Source: Streptomyces afghaniensis 772 (GTDB lineage Bacteria; Actinomycetota; Actinomycetes; Streptomycetales; Streptomycetaceae). Taken from it: DNA of 47,294 nucleotides. The position numbers were made by a program, and so were the translations under genes. Every line of letters starts with the position of its first letter. The first letter of the stretch is position 1. The notes beneath the pieces were generated by a model. That model was not told the DNA's origin and did not search any database. It worked only from the letters and a program-made list of their open reading frames with translations. Below, piece by piece: positions 17,270-22,936 of the stretch. Location: the NCBI GenBank assembly GCA_000415505.1, contig KE354397.1, positions 1 through 47,294 on the forward strand. Direction: 5' to 3'.

Positions 17270-18004
17270 ATGAGCACTGCACACGGCGCCCGTGCCCGGG
17301 CCAGGATCGAAGTCACCGCGGCCATCAAGGACGAGGCCCGCAGACAGCTCGCGGCCGACGGCGCCGCCCGGCTCTCGCTGCGGGCCGTCGCCCGCGAGCT
17401 CGGCATGGTCTCCTCCGCGCTGTACCGCTACTTCCCCAGTCGTGACGACCTGCTGACCGCCCTCATCATCGACGCCTACGACTCCCTCGGCGAGGCCGCC
17501 GAGGCCGCACACGACGCGGCCGCCGGCTCCGGCCCCCTGCAACGCTGGATCGCGGTGTGCGAGGCGGTGCGGCGCTGGGCGCTCGGCCATCCGCACGAGT
17601 ACGCCCTCATCTACGGATCGCCCGTCCCGGGCTACACCGCCCCCGACACCACCGTCCCGGCCGCCGCCCGCGTCGGTCTCCTGCTCATCGGCGTCGTGCG
17701 CGACGCGTACCGCGGCCTCGGCCTGGCCCGGCCCTCGCTCCCGGCGGACCTGCGCCCGGAGGCCGAGCGGATGGCCGCCGACCTCGCGCCGGACCTCCCG
17801 CCGGAGGTGGTGACGGTGCTCGTCGCCGCCTGGGCCCAGCTGTACGGGCTGGTCGGGTTCGAGCTGTTCGGGCAGTTCAACCGGGTGGTGGAGGACCGGG
17901 AGGTGTTCTTCCGGTATGCGGTGGGGCAACTCGCCCACGGGGTGGGGCTGGTGTATCCGCAGCGGGGGCCTGCCGCGAAGAGCCCCGGACCTCACAACGA
18001 CTGA
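17270..18004 (+). CDS. TetR-family transcriptional repressor
   Basis: A 244-aa regulator (247 aa if started at ATG 17261). The N-terminal TetR HTH spans about residues 15-60, with ARLSLRAVARELGMVSSALYRYFPSRDDLL as the recognition region. The C-terminal ligand-binding domain contains WALGHPHEYALIYGSPVPGY and resembles the TetR_C_33/WHG-type domain found in many Streptomyces regulators. The inducer is unknown. It is divergent from the F420-type nitroreductase, with a dense operator array in between, so autoregulation plus control of the nitroreductase is the likely scheme. Confidence 0.92.
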   Translation: MSTAHGARARARIEVTAAIKDEARRQLAADGAARLSLRAVARELGMVSSALYRYFPSRDDLLTALIIDAYDSLGEAAEAAHDAAAGSGPLQRWIAVCEAVRRWALGHPHEYALIYGSPVPGYTAPDTTVPAAARVGLLLIGVVRDAYRGLGLARPSLPADLRPEAERMAADLAPDLPPEVVTVLVAAWAQLYGLVGFELFGQFNRVVEDREVFFRYAVGQLAHGVGLVYPQRGPAAKSPGPHND

Positions 18005-18040
18005 GCCGGCGGCGGCCCCGCAGTCCTCGGGCGCGCAGCA

Positions 18041-19249
18041 CTATGCACTGCCGGAAGGCCGGCGGGGCTCGGGGGCCCACCATCCGTGGGGGCCGGGGCC
18101 TCCGATCACCGGGCCGTCGGGCCACAGATCAGCGAGGTCGGCCGGATGGAGGGGCCGGTGGTAAGCAGCTCGCAGAACGTCGGCAGCCGTCGCGGGAGGA
18201 GCCTCGGCCAGGGCCATGAACCAGTCGAAGCCGGCCGGATATGCCCACAGGTACGTCCGCAGCAGCGGATCCGCGCCCCGGTCGGAGAGCATGTCCGCGA
18301 TCTGGGTGTCGTCCCAGAAGGGCACCCGTGACACAGCGTGGGCCGCGCAGGCATCGGCACTCACGCCGGAATGGATGGCCACGTGCAACTCTGCGCACAC
18401 CAGTTGCAGATAGTGCTCCAGGCGCACGCGTGTCATCAGCTGGTGGTCGTCGGGGGCGACGAACAGAGGCAGCGACTGTGCCAGCCCCTCGAGAACCACC
18501 TGACAGGGCGAGTGCACCGTGAGCAGCGGCAGCCACTCCTGCTTGCCCCTCGCGAAGGCCGCGTGGAACCCCGCGCTCTGCAACCCGTGGCCGAGAACCT
18601 CATGGAGCGCGAACAGCCTGGCCTGAACGACGGTGAGGGCCGCCCGTTCGAGATTGATGCGCAGTCGTACGGTCCGCCCGGCTCCATCCAGCCAGTATGA
18701 CCAGTAGGCATCGACCCGAACCGCTTCGATCGTCAAGTCATACGGCGCCGTCGCACCAACCGTAGTACGTACGCGCGGCTCGAACGAGGCCGCCTCACGG
18801 CTGACCGCTTCGGCCGCCGCTTCAGGGGTGATGATGCCCTCGGCGCGATTCAGGTCGTGGGCGGTATTCGGTCCCCAGGCGATCCCGGCGTCGGCCAGAA
18901 GGCGGCGAACCTCATCACCGTGCTCCGTGACGTAGCCGGCCGGCCAGCCTCGTGTGCCGCAGCCCTGGGTCCGGCGCACGTAGGTGTCAAAGGCAAGGTG
19001 CTCGCCGAGCAGTGTGGAGAGGTAGGCGAGCTGAGCCTGGATCTCCCGCACAAGACGGCCGTCGGCCACCTCCCGAGCGCGGTCGAGGAGCGAACGCAGA
19101 CGCCGCAGTGCTTCGAGCCTGCCCAGCGCCGCCGGGGCCGGCGCGGGCGCGCAGTCGAAGTCGATGACCGGCGCGTTTCCCCGCTCCGTCTCGAATCGGT
19201 GCCAACCGCGAAGAACTTGTTCCAGCGCCTCGTACAGAGTCTCGCTCAT
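18041..19249 (-). CDS. putative zinc metallopeptidase with HExxxH motif, unassigned family
   Basis: A 402-aa protein that I cannot place in a named family. The key feature is ALHEVLGHGLQSAGF, giving an HExxxH motif at H216, E217 and H221. A glutamate follows 37 residues after E217 in VVLEGLAQSLPLFV (E254). This is the ligand layout of gluzincin-like peptidases and recalls DUF885 (HExxPGH) and the HExxxH tyrosine carboxypeptidases. The N-terminal about 100 residues are helical with Arg/Leu repeats. There is no signal peptide. ATG 19249 is chosen; the upstream in-frame extension is low-complexity. It is divergent from the peptide genes at 19364, so a role in maturing or degrading those peptides is an inference. 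Base and codon use is less biased than in flanking genes. Confidence 0.7.
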   Translation of the reverse strand: MSETLYEALEQVLRGWHRFETERGNAPVIDFDCAPAPAPAALGRLEALRRLRSLLDRAREVADGRLVREIQAQLAYLSTLLGEHLAFDTYVRRTQGCGTRGWPAGYVTEHGDEVRRLLADAGIAWGPNTAHDLNRAEGIITPEAAAEAVSREAASFEPRVRTTVGATAPYDLTIEAVRVDAYWSYWLDGAGRTVRLRINLERAALTVVQARLFALHEVLGHGLQSAGFHAAFARGKQEWLPLLTVHSPCQVVLEGLAQSLPLFVAPDDHQLMTRVRLEHYLQLVCAELHVAIHSGVSADACAAHAVSRVPFWDDTQIADMLSDRGADPLLRTYLWAYPAGFDWFMALAEAPPATAADVLRAAYHRPLHPADLADLWPDGPVIGGPGPHGWWAPEPRRPSGSA

Positions 19250-19363
19250 GGGAGTGCGGCTCCGATGTGTGGCCGACGACAGGGCTTCCGGGCTTTCGTG
19301 GGTGGAGTCATACTCGGATGATGAGCGACCTCGTACCGCTCGCCCAGAAGGACGGAGAATCCT

Positions 19364-19534
19364 TTGGAAACTCAACTGCCCGATCTGAGCGGTGTGATGA
19401 TGACCGATCTTGCCCATGCGAGCGATGAACAAACGATGGCCGCCCTCAACTGGGTGATCGGGCAGTGCGATCGTACGCCGTCCGTCTGTGCCGGTGGCGG
19501 TGAACCGGGCGGGGGAGCAGAGCGCATCGGCTGA
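19364..19534 (+). CDS. putative RiPP precursor peptide 1 (TTG start)
   Basis: A 56-aa peptide. The TTG at 19364 is supported by GGAGA at 19354-19358, 6 nt upstream. The leader-like N-terminus LETQLPDLSGVMMTDL and the helical DEQTMAALNWVIGQC resemble FxsA-type leaders (DLSGVxLxDL...DD...). The C-terminus is Gly-rich and ends GGGAERIG-COOH, the same ending as the next two ORFs. It has two cysteines (residues 35 and 42) absent from its paralogues. Codon use (CAA, ACT, GAA, CAT, CTT) is atypical for Streptomyces. The alignment with its two neighbours over both ends is strong evidence that it is real. Confidence 0.72.
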   Translation: METQLPDLSGVMMTDLAHASDEQTMAALNWVIGQCDRTPSVCAGGGEPGGGAERIG

Positions 19535-19556
19535 CCGTCCATCACCGCCTCACCGC
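19520..19556 (+). repeat. direct repeat A1 at the end of peptide gene 1
   Basis: A 37-nt block covering the codons for ERIG, the TGA stop and the following spacer. It recurs at 19749-19785 with two mismatches and marks tandem duplication of the precursor genes. Confidence 0.85.
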
Positions 19557-19586
19557 CTCACCGCCATTACGCGTAGGGGAGCTGTC

Positions 19587-19763
19587 GTGATCGAATCGCA
19601 GGTGCCGGATCTCACGGTTGTTCGACTCCGAGAAGTCCTCGGCATTGACGATATCGCGGTGCGTCGTGGGCTTGTGTGGGTCGGTATGCAGGTTGACGAG
19701 GTGCCGGCGGTCGCCGTGTCCAACGACGGCACGGGCGGTGGCGGCGCGGAGCGCATCGGCTGA
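19587..19763 (+). CDS. putative RiPP precursor peptide 2
   Basis: A 58-aa peptide. GTG 19587 is placed by AGGGGAG at 19575-19581, 5 nt upstream. The sequence begins VIESQVPDLTVVRLREVLG, continues with IDDIAVRRG and WVGMQV, and ends in a Gly-rich tail TGGGGAERIG-COOH. About two thirds of its residues match peptide 3. The conserved leader (PDLTxVRLRxVLG), variable middle and invariant C-terminus are the layout expected of a modified-peptide precursor with a C-terminal core. It has no cysteine and no membrane segment. Confidence 0.75.
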   Translation: MIESQVPDLTVVRLREVLGIDDIAVRRGLVWVGMQVDEVPAVAVSNDGTGGGGAERIG

Positions 19764-19785
19764 CTGTCCATGACCGCCTCACCGC
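19749..19785 (+). repeat. direct repeat A2 at the end of peptide gene 2
   Basis: Second copy of the 37-nt block at 19520-19556, again spanning the ERIG codons, TGA and spacer. Both are followed by a TAGGGGAGCTG ribosome-binding segment before the next GTG. Confidence 0.85.
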
Positions 19786-19806
19786 ATTCCTGGTAGGGGA
19801 GCTGAC

Positions 19807-19983
19807 GTGATCGAATCGCAGATGCCGGATCTCACGGCTGTTCGACTTCGCGATGTCCTCGGCACTGACGACACCGCTGTGCGTCGCGGGGCTGAATGGG
19901 TCGGGATGCAGGTTGAGGGGGTGCAGGCGATCGCCGCGTCCGGCGAGGGGGGACCCGGCGGTGGGGCGGAGCGTATCGGTTGA
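19807..19983 (+). CDS. putative RiPP precursor peptide 3
   Basis: A 58-aa peptide starting at GTG 19807 with the same AGGGGAG ribosome-binding segment as peptide 2. It begins VIESQMPDLTAVRLRDVLG, has TDDTAVRRG and EWVGMQV in the middle, and ends GGPGGGAERIG-COOH. Its stop overlaps the TTG start of the HExxH enzyme gene in a TTGA arrangement, so translation of the enzyme is probably coupled to that of this peptide. This direct coupling is the best evidence that the peptides are the enzyme's substrates. Confidence 0.76.
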   Translation: MIESQMPDLTAVRLRDVLGTDDTAVRRGAEWVGMQVEGVQAIAASGEGGPGGGAERIG

Positions 19984-21830
19984 CGGGCACAGGGATTTCC
20001 CGTCATCGCATCTCCCTGAGCACCCTCGACGCCATCGCCCGCGGAGCCGCGGGTCCCGACGTCGTCCGCGAGGTCAGGAAGGCCGAGCGCAGCCGTACGC
20101 TGCTGTTGTTGCGTGCCATTCGGGACGAAGCCGCCTCATCTTCGAAGGCCCGAGGTCCTCTCCCGCCGACCGAGTCGGCCTGGCAGGTGCTGGATCGCGT
20201 CCAGCAGAGCGCACCAGCGGCGCTGGAGACCGTCTTGTCGTACCCGTATGTCGCCGGGTGGGCCGGCTTCACGTTGCGCCATCTGCGTCGCGGGCACCCG
20301 ACGGATCCCACCCCGGCGTGGGTCCACCTCGGTCAACTGCACAGCATCGCCGCCGCGGCCGCCGTGCACGCAGGGATCGATGTGGACGTACGAGTGCCGG
20401 CCAGGAGCGGGACTGTCTCGCTGCCCACCCTGGGCGCGGCCTTCTCGCCGGCCGACCGCGTCGATCAGTGGTCCGTGGCCCGAATCCGGTCCCGCGATCG
20501 GGATCGCCGTATCGACATCGGCGACAACACGGTACGGCTGCCGCCTGACCTCTCGCAGGACGCCACCGGGTGGTGGGCACTGCGACGCCTCACGTGCCGG
20601 GAGGGCTCACACGTTCTGTCCTTGCGGCTGGACGACCTGGATCCGTACCGCGGACTCTACGAGACGCTCGATCCACATCGCCTCGACGATGCCGAGGTCA
20701 CCAGGTGGCAGGGCATGCTCGACGAGGCCTGGCACCTGGTGTGCCGTCACATTCCCGACAAGGCGGATGCGATGAGCGCCGGTCTGGACGTCGTAGTCCC
20801 ACGTCCTTCCACCAGCCGCTTTCCGCTGATCTCCGCCTCCAGTGGCGAGGCCTTCGCGGGTATCAACGTTGCCCGGCCCCACGCGGCCGAGGATCTCGCG
20901 GAGATCCTCGTTCACGAGTATCAACACGTCTTGCTGGGTGGCCTCCTCCACTTGGTCCCCTTGACGCGGCAGGACGAGGGGCGACTCTTCTACGCCCCTT
21001 GGCGTGACGACCCGCGCCCTGCCGCAGGGTTGCTGCAGGGCGTCTACGCCTTTTTCGGAGTGACGGAGTTCTGGCGGGCCGCGGCCAGGTCCGGAGACGA
21101 CGCGATCGCCGACTTCGCCGCGTTCACCTGCGCGCGGTGGCTGGAGCCGACGTTGGAGGCCGCTCGTGCCCTGCTGGCCGAACGGACTGTGACCGAAGCC
21201 GGCCGTCGCTTTCTCGATGGGATCGCGGAACAGCTCGTCACCTGGGGAGACGTCTCTCCGCAGCATCGTGTGGCGGAGGTCGTGACCGCCGATCACCGGG
21301 CCGGATGGCGCCTGCGCCATCTGCGACCCGATCCTGGCGTCGTGGCCGGTCTGGCCCGCGCGTGGCGGGAGCCGGATGAGGATGGCGCACCAGGCCGAGG
21401 CACGGAATCACTCGTATCGCAGCCCGACGGCCCGTGGTCCCTCGCTCGTGTCGATCTCCTGCGGTGCGCGGTCCGGGAGGGCTCGTCCTCCGTGAACCCG
21501 ATTCTGGCCGAGTCGACCGGAGCGACAGTCGCCGACCTCGCGCTCGCCGACGGCCGTTACGCCGACGCCCTGGACAGCTACCGCGCGGAGATCGCAGGTG
21601 ACCCGGACCACCCCCCGTCCTGGATCGGCTTCGCGTTGGCCTGGTCCTGCCTCGCGTCCGGGCCCGGGCCCACGCTGTTGCTGCAACGACCCCAACTCGT
21701 ACGAGCGGTCCACCGGTTGTTGCGGGCTGGGACGGAAGCGCCGCAACCAGACACGCTCGCCACCTGGCTCGCGGACCGTCTCTCCACGGGCGACGACGGC
21801 TATGAGCGTCCGCGTACGGGAATGGCGTAG
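19980..21830 (+). CDS. HExxH-motif peptide-modifying enzyme (aKG-HExxH beta-hydroxylase-like)
   Basis: A 616-aa stand-alone enzyme. The N-terminus HRISLSTLDAIARG followed by RSRTLLLLRAI matches the start of the HExxH putative peptide-modification domain found fused to or beside FxsB. The metal motif is HEYQH at H312-H316 in EILVHEYQHVLLGGLLHL. FYAPWRDDPRPAAGLLQGVYAFF follows as the conserved second block. Family members have been described as 2-oxoglutarate/Fe-dependent peptide beta-hydroxylases; this assignment is from recall. The TTG at 19980 overlaps the preceding stop, and GGAG at 19968-19971 gives correct spacing. The 3' end overlaps the convergent membrane-protein gene by 31 nt. No radical SAM partner is present. 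Confidence 0.82.
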   Translation: MTGTGISRHRISLSTLDAIARGAAGPDVVREVRKAERSRTLLLLRAIRDEAASSSKARGPLPPTESAWQVLDRVQQSAPAALETVLSYPYVAGWAGFTLRHLRRGHPTDPTPAWVHLGQLHSIAAAAAVHAGIDVDVRVPARSGTVSLPTLGAAFSPADRVDQWSVARIRSRDRDRRIDIGDNTVRLPPDLSQDATGWWALRRLTCREGSHVLSLRLDDLDPYRGLYETLDPHRLDDAEVTRWQGMLDEAWHLVCRHIPDKADAMSAGLDVVVPRPSTSRFPLISASSGEAFAGINVARPHAAEDLAEILVHEYQHVLLGGLLHLVPLTRQDEGRLFYAPWRDDPRPAAGLLQGVYAFFGVTEFWRAAARSGDDAIADFAAFTCARWLEPTLEAARALLAERTVTEAGRRFLDGIAEQLVTWGDVSPQHRVAEVVTADHRAGWRLRHLRPDPGVVAGLARAWREPDEDGAPGRGTESLVSQPDGPWSLARVDLLRCAVREGSSSVNPILAESTGATVADLALADGRYADALDSYRAEIAGDPDHPPSWIGFALAWSCLASGPGPTLLLQRPQLVRAVHRLLRAGTEAPQPDTLATWLADRLSTGDDGYERPRTGMA

Positions 21831-22711
21831 CGGTATCCGAGTTTGGCCTGCGCCGTCTTCCACCGCACGCCGTCAGCGGTCCGGCAGAACCGGGACTGCA
21901 ACTGCGACTCGGGGGCGTCGGGCATTTCCATGCCCAACTGCTGCGCTTCCACACGGTTCTGCGCCCACGGCGAAGAGGAAATGGTAAGGCCGTCGCGGCC
22001 GGTGATCGTGACTTCGAGGCTCTCGGTGACGTATGAGACGTCGGTGTAGCACTTTTCCTCACGCTCGACAAAACCGAAAGCACCGCAGAGTTCCAGCTCG
22101 ACCGTGAAGGAGCAACGAGTGCGGCCCGGATCCAGAGAAACAGGTACGCGAACGGCGCCCGACTCGACCAGCCGTCCGTCGAGGGCTGTCGGGTCGGCCG
22201 GTATCTTGCGCTCCCTTCGTACGAAGGCGATGGACGGATCGGACTCCACACCGTCCACGCTGACGCGAAGCACTGAAACGCTTGTCCATGCCGGATTCTC
22301 CGGAGGTACCTCCGCGATCATCGGGAAGGAGATCCACGGCACCACCGCGGCATTCGGCGATTCGACATCGCACGAAATCCTCAACGTCGCATTCCCGTCG
22401 CCCGAGATGACGAAGGTGTCGTGTCGATGGCGGAAGCGGATGAGCTGGGGCACGTACGCTTCCAGGTCTCGCAGATGTGCCAGGTCGCGCACTCCTTTGC
22501 GGATGCGGTCGGCCAACAGCCAAACGGCGACCAGGCCGGTTGCGATGGAGGCGGTGATCAGTAACCACGTGAGCACGAGGAAGAGCGCGGTTTGAGAGGC
22601 GCTGGACCTCAGACTCACCAGCGTTCCCGCGATCGTGAGCACAGTCGATACCACCGCAGAAACGAACGCCGCGAGGGTCGCGCTGACCCCGTCGTCCCGT
22701 GGCTGCCCCAC
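21800..22711 (-). CDS. two-TM membrane protein with C-terminal soluble domain, unknown function
   Basis: A 303-aa protein. Two hydrophobic segments lie near the N-terminus: VSATLAAFVSAVVSTVLTI at about residues 8-28 and a second in SQTALFLVLTWLLITASIATGLVAVWLL at about 40-68. A basic patch RIRKGVRDL and a beta-rich domain of about 220 residues follow, with no motif I know. The C-terminus is rich in charged residues and contains a lone Cys pair region (CGAFGFVEREEKCYTD). GTG 22711 is chosen because GGGGAGAAC lies just upstream. It converges on the HExxH enzyme gene with a 31-nt overlap. Whether it belongs to the peptide locus is unknown. Confidence 0.6.
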   Translation of the reverse strand: MGQPRDDGVSATLAAFVSAVVSTVLTIAGTLVSLRSSASQTALFLVLTWLLITASIATGLVAVWLLADRIRKGVRDLAHLRDLEAYVPQLIRFRHRHDTFVISGDGNATLRISCDVESPNAAVVPWISFPMIAEVPPENPAWTSVSVLRVSVDGVESDPSIAFVRRERKIPADPTALDGRLVESGAVRVPVSLDPGRTRCSFTVELELCGAFGFVEREEKCYTDVSYVTESLEVTITGRDGLTISSSPWAQNRVEAQQLGMEMPDAPESQLQSRFCRTADGVRWKTAQAKLGYRYAIPVRGRS

Positions 22712-22936
22712 ACCGTTCTCCCCCCGGTACGTGCCGTGCCCGCCATTGTCGCTTCGGCAGCAGTCTCGTGACCAGCCGAGCACACAAAGTCATGCAACGC
22801 CTCCTCCTGCCGACGCGCGGTCGGCGAGGGCATCCGGGCGAGGCCGCCCCGGCGGACGACGTACTTCCCCGGGAGTACGTGTGATCACCACGCCGGGGTG
22901 ACGCCGCCCCGGACCGGCGGCGTCTAGCGTGGCGGT

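Follow-up and report, generated by a model that had tools for sequence, protein, structure and literature searches.

The window analysed here is the whole contig KE354397.1 (C692; 47,294 nt) from the 9.85-Mb genome of Streptomyces afghaniensis 772, and within it we studied a compact locus made of three small tandem genes, a gene for an HExxH-type enzyme and a convergent gene for a predicted membrane protein. The most probable reading, to which we assign a probability of roughly 0.6, is that this locus is a horizontally inserted cassette of the ribosomally synthesised and post-translationally modified peptide (RiPP) type, in which tandem precursors with an FxsA-like leader would be served by an alpha-ketoglutarate (aKG)-HExxH enzyme oxidising their AERI[G/D] tail, next to a predicted membrane partner. 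As a part of the same reading, the locus would represent a small branch of its family that lost or never had the VMAP machinery. The precursors, the enzyme family, the conserved tail, the partner gene and the insertion were all found, and the contig has neither a VMAP-C nor a radical SAM match.

Precursor peptides and coupled enzyme

The precursor genes lie on the forward strand, upstream of the enzyme gene. Precursor 1 (19364..19534; TTG start, 56 aa) is the most divergent copy and was recognised with E 5e-16 by the precursor hidden Markov model (HMM) described below; precursors 2 (19587..19763) and 3 (19807..19983), also matched by this HMM, start with GTG and have 58 aa each. All three end in GGGAERIG, and the stop codon of precursor 3 overlaps the enzyme start as TTGA. 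Purine-rich sequence resembling a ribosome site stands ahead of each start. Mechanical calling of open reading frames (ORFs) extends ORF2 upstream to 91 aa; GTG at 19587 was preferred, given the ribosome-site-like sequence there and the resemblance of the product to ORF3. A tandem duplication (19565..19984, forward strand; two 200-nt copies at a spacing of 220, 81% identical) takes in precursors 2 and 3 together with the 5' region of each. Promoter and terminator scans were uninformative. The original prediction had reported three small ORFs with this identical end, the last joined to an enzyme by TTGA; coordinates and sequences agree, and the observation of three peptides with a coupled enzyme is confirmed.

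The tail is the part of the precursors that is constrained, since its codons vary synonymously alone while the rest varies non-synonymously as well. Pairwise comparison of the 8-codon tails among the three window copies gave 4-5 synonymous and 0 non-synonymous codon differences, against 16 non-synonymous and 12 synonymous ones between precursors 2 and 3 across all 58 codons. The tail changes are synonymous only within the window genome and within that of the sister locus introduced below alike, and Ala is kept after the Gly run in 5/5 AERI peptides (three in the window, two in the sister). A degenerate pattern for GGGAERIG followed by a stop had 3 matches in the 9.85-Mb genome, all at the window locus, and its reversed control had 0 matches in the same genome. 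The conserved tail had been proposed as a target of modification, and it is a plausible one.

The enzyme (19980..21830, forward strand; TTG start, 616 aa) belongs to TIGR04267, aKG-HExxH-type peptide beta-hydroxylase, with 167 bits at a curated cut-off of 40. It also matched the FxsBH model NF040587 at 117 bits, under the cut-off of 225, and residues 521-552 showed a weak TPR-like match (TPR_19, 14 bits, under the cut-off). The motif HEYQH occupies residues 312-316. Sequence relatives in the PDB were 22nu (166 bits, residues 16-422) and ChlH 8s5f (49 bits, residues 303-422), and a PWRxDxRP block that follows HExxH is common to all three proteins. HExxH and the residues W341, R342, P345 and R346 are invariant in 92/92 homologous loci.

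The resemblance of the leaders to those of FxsA precursors, suggested earlier, stands but is weak: residues 7-27 of precursor 3 matched TIGR04268 (FxSxx-COOH precursor) at 12.2 bits, under the cut-off of 28, and precursors 1 and 2 did not match this model. None of the window peptides matched NF038399, the nitrile-hydratase-like leader. Two further statements of the original prediction hold, namely that the core is not FxSxx, as the peptides end in AERIG, and that no radical SAM enzyme is present in the window: PF04055 had 0 matches on C692 and 23 in the genome (22 over the cut-off). An FxSxx/radical SAM system was rejected on these grounds. The fused radical SAM/aKG-HExxH cyclophane systems (8s5f ChlH and 22nu, the latter entered in the PDB under the name radical SAM core domain-containing protein) share with the window locus the HExxH domain and the weak FxSxx-COOH leader resemblance, but the window enzyme is stand-alone, with no radical SAM on the contig and no FxSxx core.

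Homologous loci and conflict systems

Of 392 genus genomes searched, a sample with one per species, 146 have a homologue of the enzyme at E <= 1e-30. We examined 92 loci, comprising the window, 89 further matches down the homologue ranking and two Frankia loci; two of the ranked ones were passed over, G325:C265 because it lies at a contig edge and L034 as the same locus as L005. The precursor HMM was seeded from 57 candidates and scanned against a stretch around the projected enzyme start, reaching 900 bp upstream and 120 bp beyond it, superseding earlier regular expressions, of which the stricter one had matched 42/92 loci. A related precursor with an FxsA-like leader was found at 86/92 loci, against 0 matches in equal-sized control stretches within enzyme genes. 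The earlier reading of the locus as a RiPP-like precursor and enzyme pair is supported. When 13 larger loci were searched in six frames with the same HMM, precursors appeared in 12, plus one borderline match (E 0.0094) which looks like chance. Ten homologous precursors were compared with NCBIfam and none reached a cut-off; one (L026) matched NF038399 at 14.5 bits, with a cut-off of 40.

Across the 86 precursors the tails differ clade by clade. Exact C-terminal R-x-D occurs in 22/86 (shuffle mean 0.68, maximum 5 in 2,000 shuffles) and R-x-[D/E/G] at the end or one residue off in 32/86 (mean 4.67, maximum 13); as relatedness makes these sequences non-independent, the shuffles indicate no more than that the motif is not compositional. 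Among the loci examined, AERI-type endings recur solely in the sister locus, and tandem sets were found in the window (three) and the sister (two), with a single precursor found at each of the other precursor-bearing loci. Thus, the expectation that small ORFs stand upstream of the enzyme's homologues was borne out widely, and that of recurring AERIG-type endings in the sister alone.

Several other arrangements were seen among these loci. Seven (L098 in G301; G196, G370, G159, G382, G316, G101) have a pair of divergent HExxH enzymes, and a separate precursor accompanies each of them, with tails such as QRFD and NPQRDE. In the clade of L076, L077, L082, L086 and L088 the precursors run up to the projected start of the enzyme and have a mostly basic tail, RGRRPDQWRQ for instance, that is unlike the four C-terminal types described in eLife 2020 (PMC7159879). 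Precursors ending in Cys (SGGC, GAGC, SGSC, SANC) stand beside homologous enzymes at L048, L054, L040 and L061. It should be added that the genome of S. afghaniensis 772 has a further enzyme homologue (G000:C567, L115, at about 1931) with a precursor ending in GGARAE, the context of which is hidden by the contig edge.

According to eLife 2020 (PMC7159879), peptide-processing systems occur inside actinobacterial VMAP-ternary conflict systems. Each pairs a zincin-like enzyme with a small, rapidly diverging protein whose C-terminus is of the FxSxx, RxD, acidic or FtsH-associated type; the paper also mentions standalone versions that have an AP-ATPase. We therefore do not regard the locus as an isolated new class, as the original prediction of a distinct peptide class would have it: an enzyme with a diverging RxD-tailed small protein has already been described, and the homologues at about 40% identity fit the RxD-type systems of that paper. 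VMAP-C (PF20028) was sought in 25 chosen genomes with enzyme matches, covering 42 listed enzyme loci. It was present somewhere in 25/25 genomes and within 15 kb of 37/42 loci, at a distance of 4.3-10.1 kb. The five loci with no VMAP-C nearby were the window, the sister (G217:C58), G382:C12, and C567 and C729 of the window genome; on C567 the match lies 2.3 kb from the contig start and C729 has a length of just 14.6 kb, so that linkage is not judgeable at these two. Neither the 47-kb contig of the window nor the 294-kb contig of the sister carries VMAP-C, and no NB-ARC (AP-ATPase) was found among 18 window proteins scanned with Pfam, a subset of the window genes. At L098, genes for VMAP, NB-ARC/TPR, trypsin-EAD2 and Trypco2 surround the two enzymes.

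The window locus resembles the RxD-type VMAP systems in its homologous HExxH enzyme (best about 40% identity) and in the rapidly diverging small protein upstream; the Arg-x-Asp tail is found in the sister (RID) but not in the window (RIG). It differs from them in the absence of VMAP-C from its contig, the tandem precursors, the AERI[G/D] tail, the two-transmembrane (two-TM) partner and its insertion. Literature searches recognised no paper on AERIG/AERID peptides and none characterising chemically an RxD-type conflict-system peptide; the "RxD motif" of PMC8195603 is an unrelated usage and was set aside.

Sister locus, predicted membrane partner and insertion

The closest homologue of the enzyme (65-66% identity), and its sole close relative among those found, is that of Streptomyces sp. 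B93 (L005, the same as L034; G217:C58), where two tandem peptides ending in GGGAERID precede it with the same TTGA joint. In both genomes the enzyme gene is followed by a convergent partner gene, with the same 31-bp overlap of 3' ends. In the window it lies at 21800..22783 on the reverse strand, and its true start may lie further in. The encoded protein of 327 aa has two predicted TM helices and is beta-rich in its remaining part. The helices are suggested by hydrophobic stretches in the sequence and by the secondary structure of a low-confidence model. The partner is 79% identical between the window and B93 and is hence more conserved than the enzyme. It was found in 2/392 genus genomes, both times beside AERI peptides and the enzyme, and in 2/394 family genomes, an overlapping draw with the same two genomes; a profile search of 394 class genomes gave its own copy and one marginal 20-bit match. 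The original prediction had presented the locus as peptides and enzyme; both are present, but a conserved, predicted membrane protein that went unmentioned travels along with them. The earlier interpretation as a whole is partly supported.

The partner had no match above the cut-off in Pfam and NCBIfam, and a search of viral contigs revealed no relative. In PADLOC the window copy hit PycTM with 10.1 bits (E 0.13) and the sister copy had no match; identity as a Pycsar-like two-TM effector or defence-system protein was rejected, as the match is at chance level. A fold search (best E 1.9e-3; beta-rich carbohydrate-binding modules near the top) was given no weight, the model being poor. A different two-TM escort protein is described in PMC13252029.

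The cassette forms an inserted segment of 4,864 bp (17981..22844) that is absent at this site from the eight relatives compared, all of which (8/8) align to both flanks. In the nearest of them (G009, 93% identical), window position 17980 joins 22845 with about 5 bp between. The flanks are spaced by less than 125 bp in four relatives and by 0.4-1.9 kb of sequence unalignable to the window in the other four (L121, L123, L124 and L126 of L119-L126). The site between the TetR regulator and the histidine kinase, where this other sequence lies, may be an integration hot spot. Besides the genes for the three peptides, the enzyme and the two-TM protein, the window insert contains a gene of 403 aa with an HEVLGH motif (18041..19252, reverse strand). 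This gene has no family match and no match at the sister locus, and a search of 199 genomes of the genus and 61 of relatives gave no other copy; it is possibly a peptidase for the peptides.

In B93 (G217) the cassette occupies another site, where the neighbouring genes resemble those of dTDP-rhamnose biosynthesis as read from their translations and where 3.4 kb is found in place of about 80 bp in G007 and about 770 bp in G009; the two-TM gene, the enzyme, two peptides and nothing else were recognised in it. No recombinase and no transporter were recognised on either insert, and no convincing repeats were seen at the borders. A search of plasmids with the enzyme gave at most 36.6% identity (4 records), and a recognisable plasmid source was rejected, as neither the two-TM protein nor the 403-aa gene had a plasmid match. 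Based on the empty-site comparisons at both places, these sequences are most simply read as showing that the cassette was gained separately at two unrelated sites, and loss in the relatives compared is less likely.

Possible chemistry and alternative explanations

From the above we infer the reaction and its site, the membrane location of the partner and its role. The leader would dock the precursor on the enzyme, which would then oxidise the Gly-rich AERI[G/D] tail near Ala-Glu-Arg. The oxidation may be a cleavage before Ala-Glu-Arg that leaves a C-terminal amide, as PosC does at ARMD, or a residue of the tail may be beta-hydroxylated. As calculated from residue masses, the peptide would become lighter by 527.3 Da (AERIG) or 585.3 Da (AERID) on cleavage. 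The modified peptide may act through the convergent two-TM beta-rich protein or be tolerated thanks to it, this co-inherited protein being an effector or receptor, or else an immunity protein.

Oxidation at or next to the tail Ala is favoured because of the PosC/PflC and PesO precedents and of the Ala kept in all AERI peptides. As reported in PMC12636437, PosC and PflC are aKG-dependent, beta-hydroxylate a Gln run and cleave oxidatively before the C-terminal ARMD; Ala is essential there, R, M and D are individually dispensable, and the leader influences the outcome. These systems share with the window the enzyme class and a short C-terminal A-(x)-R-x-[D/G] tail, and their cluster has, by the paper, no protease gene; they carry MNIO-nitroreductase, GNAT and transporters, none of which was recognised in the sister insert. 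PesO of nitrilobacillin (PMC13060819) hydroxylates Pro just before R(V/T)DN and is also an aKG-HExxH enzyme acting beside a C-terminal Arg-containing motif, but its cluster encodes several enzymes, among them MNIO and nitrile synthetase, and it has a Pro substrate and comes from a Peribacillus host.

A number of observations weigh against the cassette with tail-oxidising enzyme and membrane partner as proposed. The structure predictions were too poor to use (mean pLDDT, the predicted local distance difference test, 43 for the enzyme and 47 for the partner), and the cassette is known from two instances. Six of the 92 loci (L070, L081, L087, L094, L095, L096) have no precursor, four of them making up one clade, and 54/86 precursors have other tails, in which R-x-[D/E/G] is not present in the terminal region; the window tail itself is RIG and not RxD. 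In a FastTree phylogeny of 90/92 enzymes (two short rows were dropped), a long branch of its own, weakly supported in its placement, unites the window with L005, so AERI[D/G] may have descended from the RxD tails or may have arisen in parallel with them. PosC and PflC were likened to the window enzyme by their published descriptions, and they work with a nitrile-hydratase-like leader and a Gln run, in place of the FxsA-like leader and Gly-rich run found here. Finally, neither a leader peptidase nor a transporter was recognised in the sister insert.

Among the alternatives, beta-hydroxylation only, with one or more tail residues hydroxylated and any removal of the tail left to a host protease or to the 403-aa HEVLGH gene, is possible but not favoured; it overlaps the preferred explanation and differs from it just in the outcome of the oxidation. 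Several aKG-HExxH enzymes are described as hydroxylating side chains with no cleavage (PMC13060819, PMC12707348), and the HEVLGH gene lies on the same insertion, but this gene has neither a counterpart at the sister locus nor a family match. We consider it rather unlikely that the peptides are exported antimicrobial RiPPs toxic to neighbours, with the two-TM protein as immunity of the producer. Although an inserted cassette, tandem precursors with variable middles and a co-inherited predicted membrane protein would suit such a role, a transporter is lacking among the genes recognised in the two inserts, the sister insert shows just peptides, enzyme and two-TM gene, and the latter is without a convincing family match.

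That the HExxH protein is a zincin peptidase releasing a C-terminal peptide seems improbable. This was assumed for the family in eLife 2020 (PMC7159879), which names a zincin-like metallopeptidase cleaving the precursor, and PflC is reported to be proteolytic when the leader is absent (PMC12636437); in contrast, the aKG-HEXXH enzymes characterised in the same paper require aKG, the NCBIfam name of the window enzyme's family is that of a peptide beta-hydroxylase, and its relatives in the PDB include ChlH, with which, as with 22nu, it has the PWRxDxRP block in common. Lastly, it is hardly credible that the locus has decayed from a VMAP-associated system and now serves no function. The missing VMAP-C, the window tails ending in G where the sister ends in D, and the diverged ORF1 would agree with decay, but HExxH and the invariant residues of the family are intact, the tail codons of the window vary synonymously only, and the partner has stayed 79% identical between two unrelated sites.

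Implications

Peptides of the RxD type in bacterial conflict systems were predicted in 2020, and the cassette described here is the smallest version found, since it adds to the peptides just a single enzyme and a single predicted membrane protein. A more far-reaching and speculative proposal, for which we see only a slim chance, is that of a self-contained mobile conflict or signalling module, where a lone oxygenase would remove the AERI[G/D] tails of the tandem precursors oxidatively, yielding Gly-amide peptides that gate a two-TM beta-rich membrane effector in place of VMAP/AP-ATPase. If that were true, the R-x-D tails of the family would be tags for oxidative cleavage and not peptidase sites. 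The AERI tails, placed beside ARMD and R(V/T)DN, suggest a shared rule, according to which the site of oxidation would be next to a C-terminal Arg.

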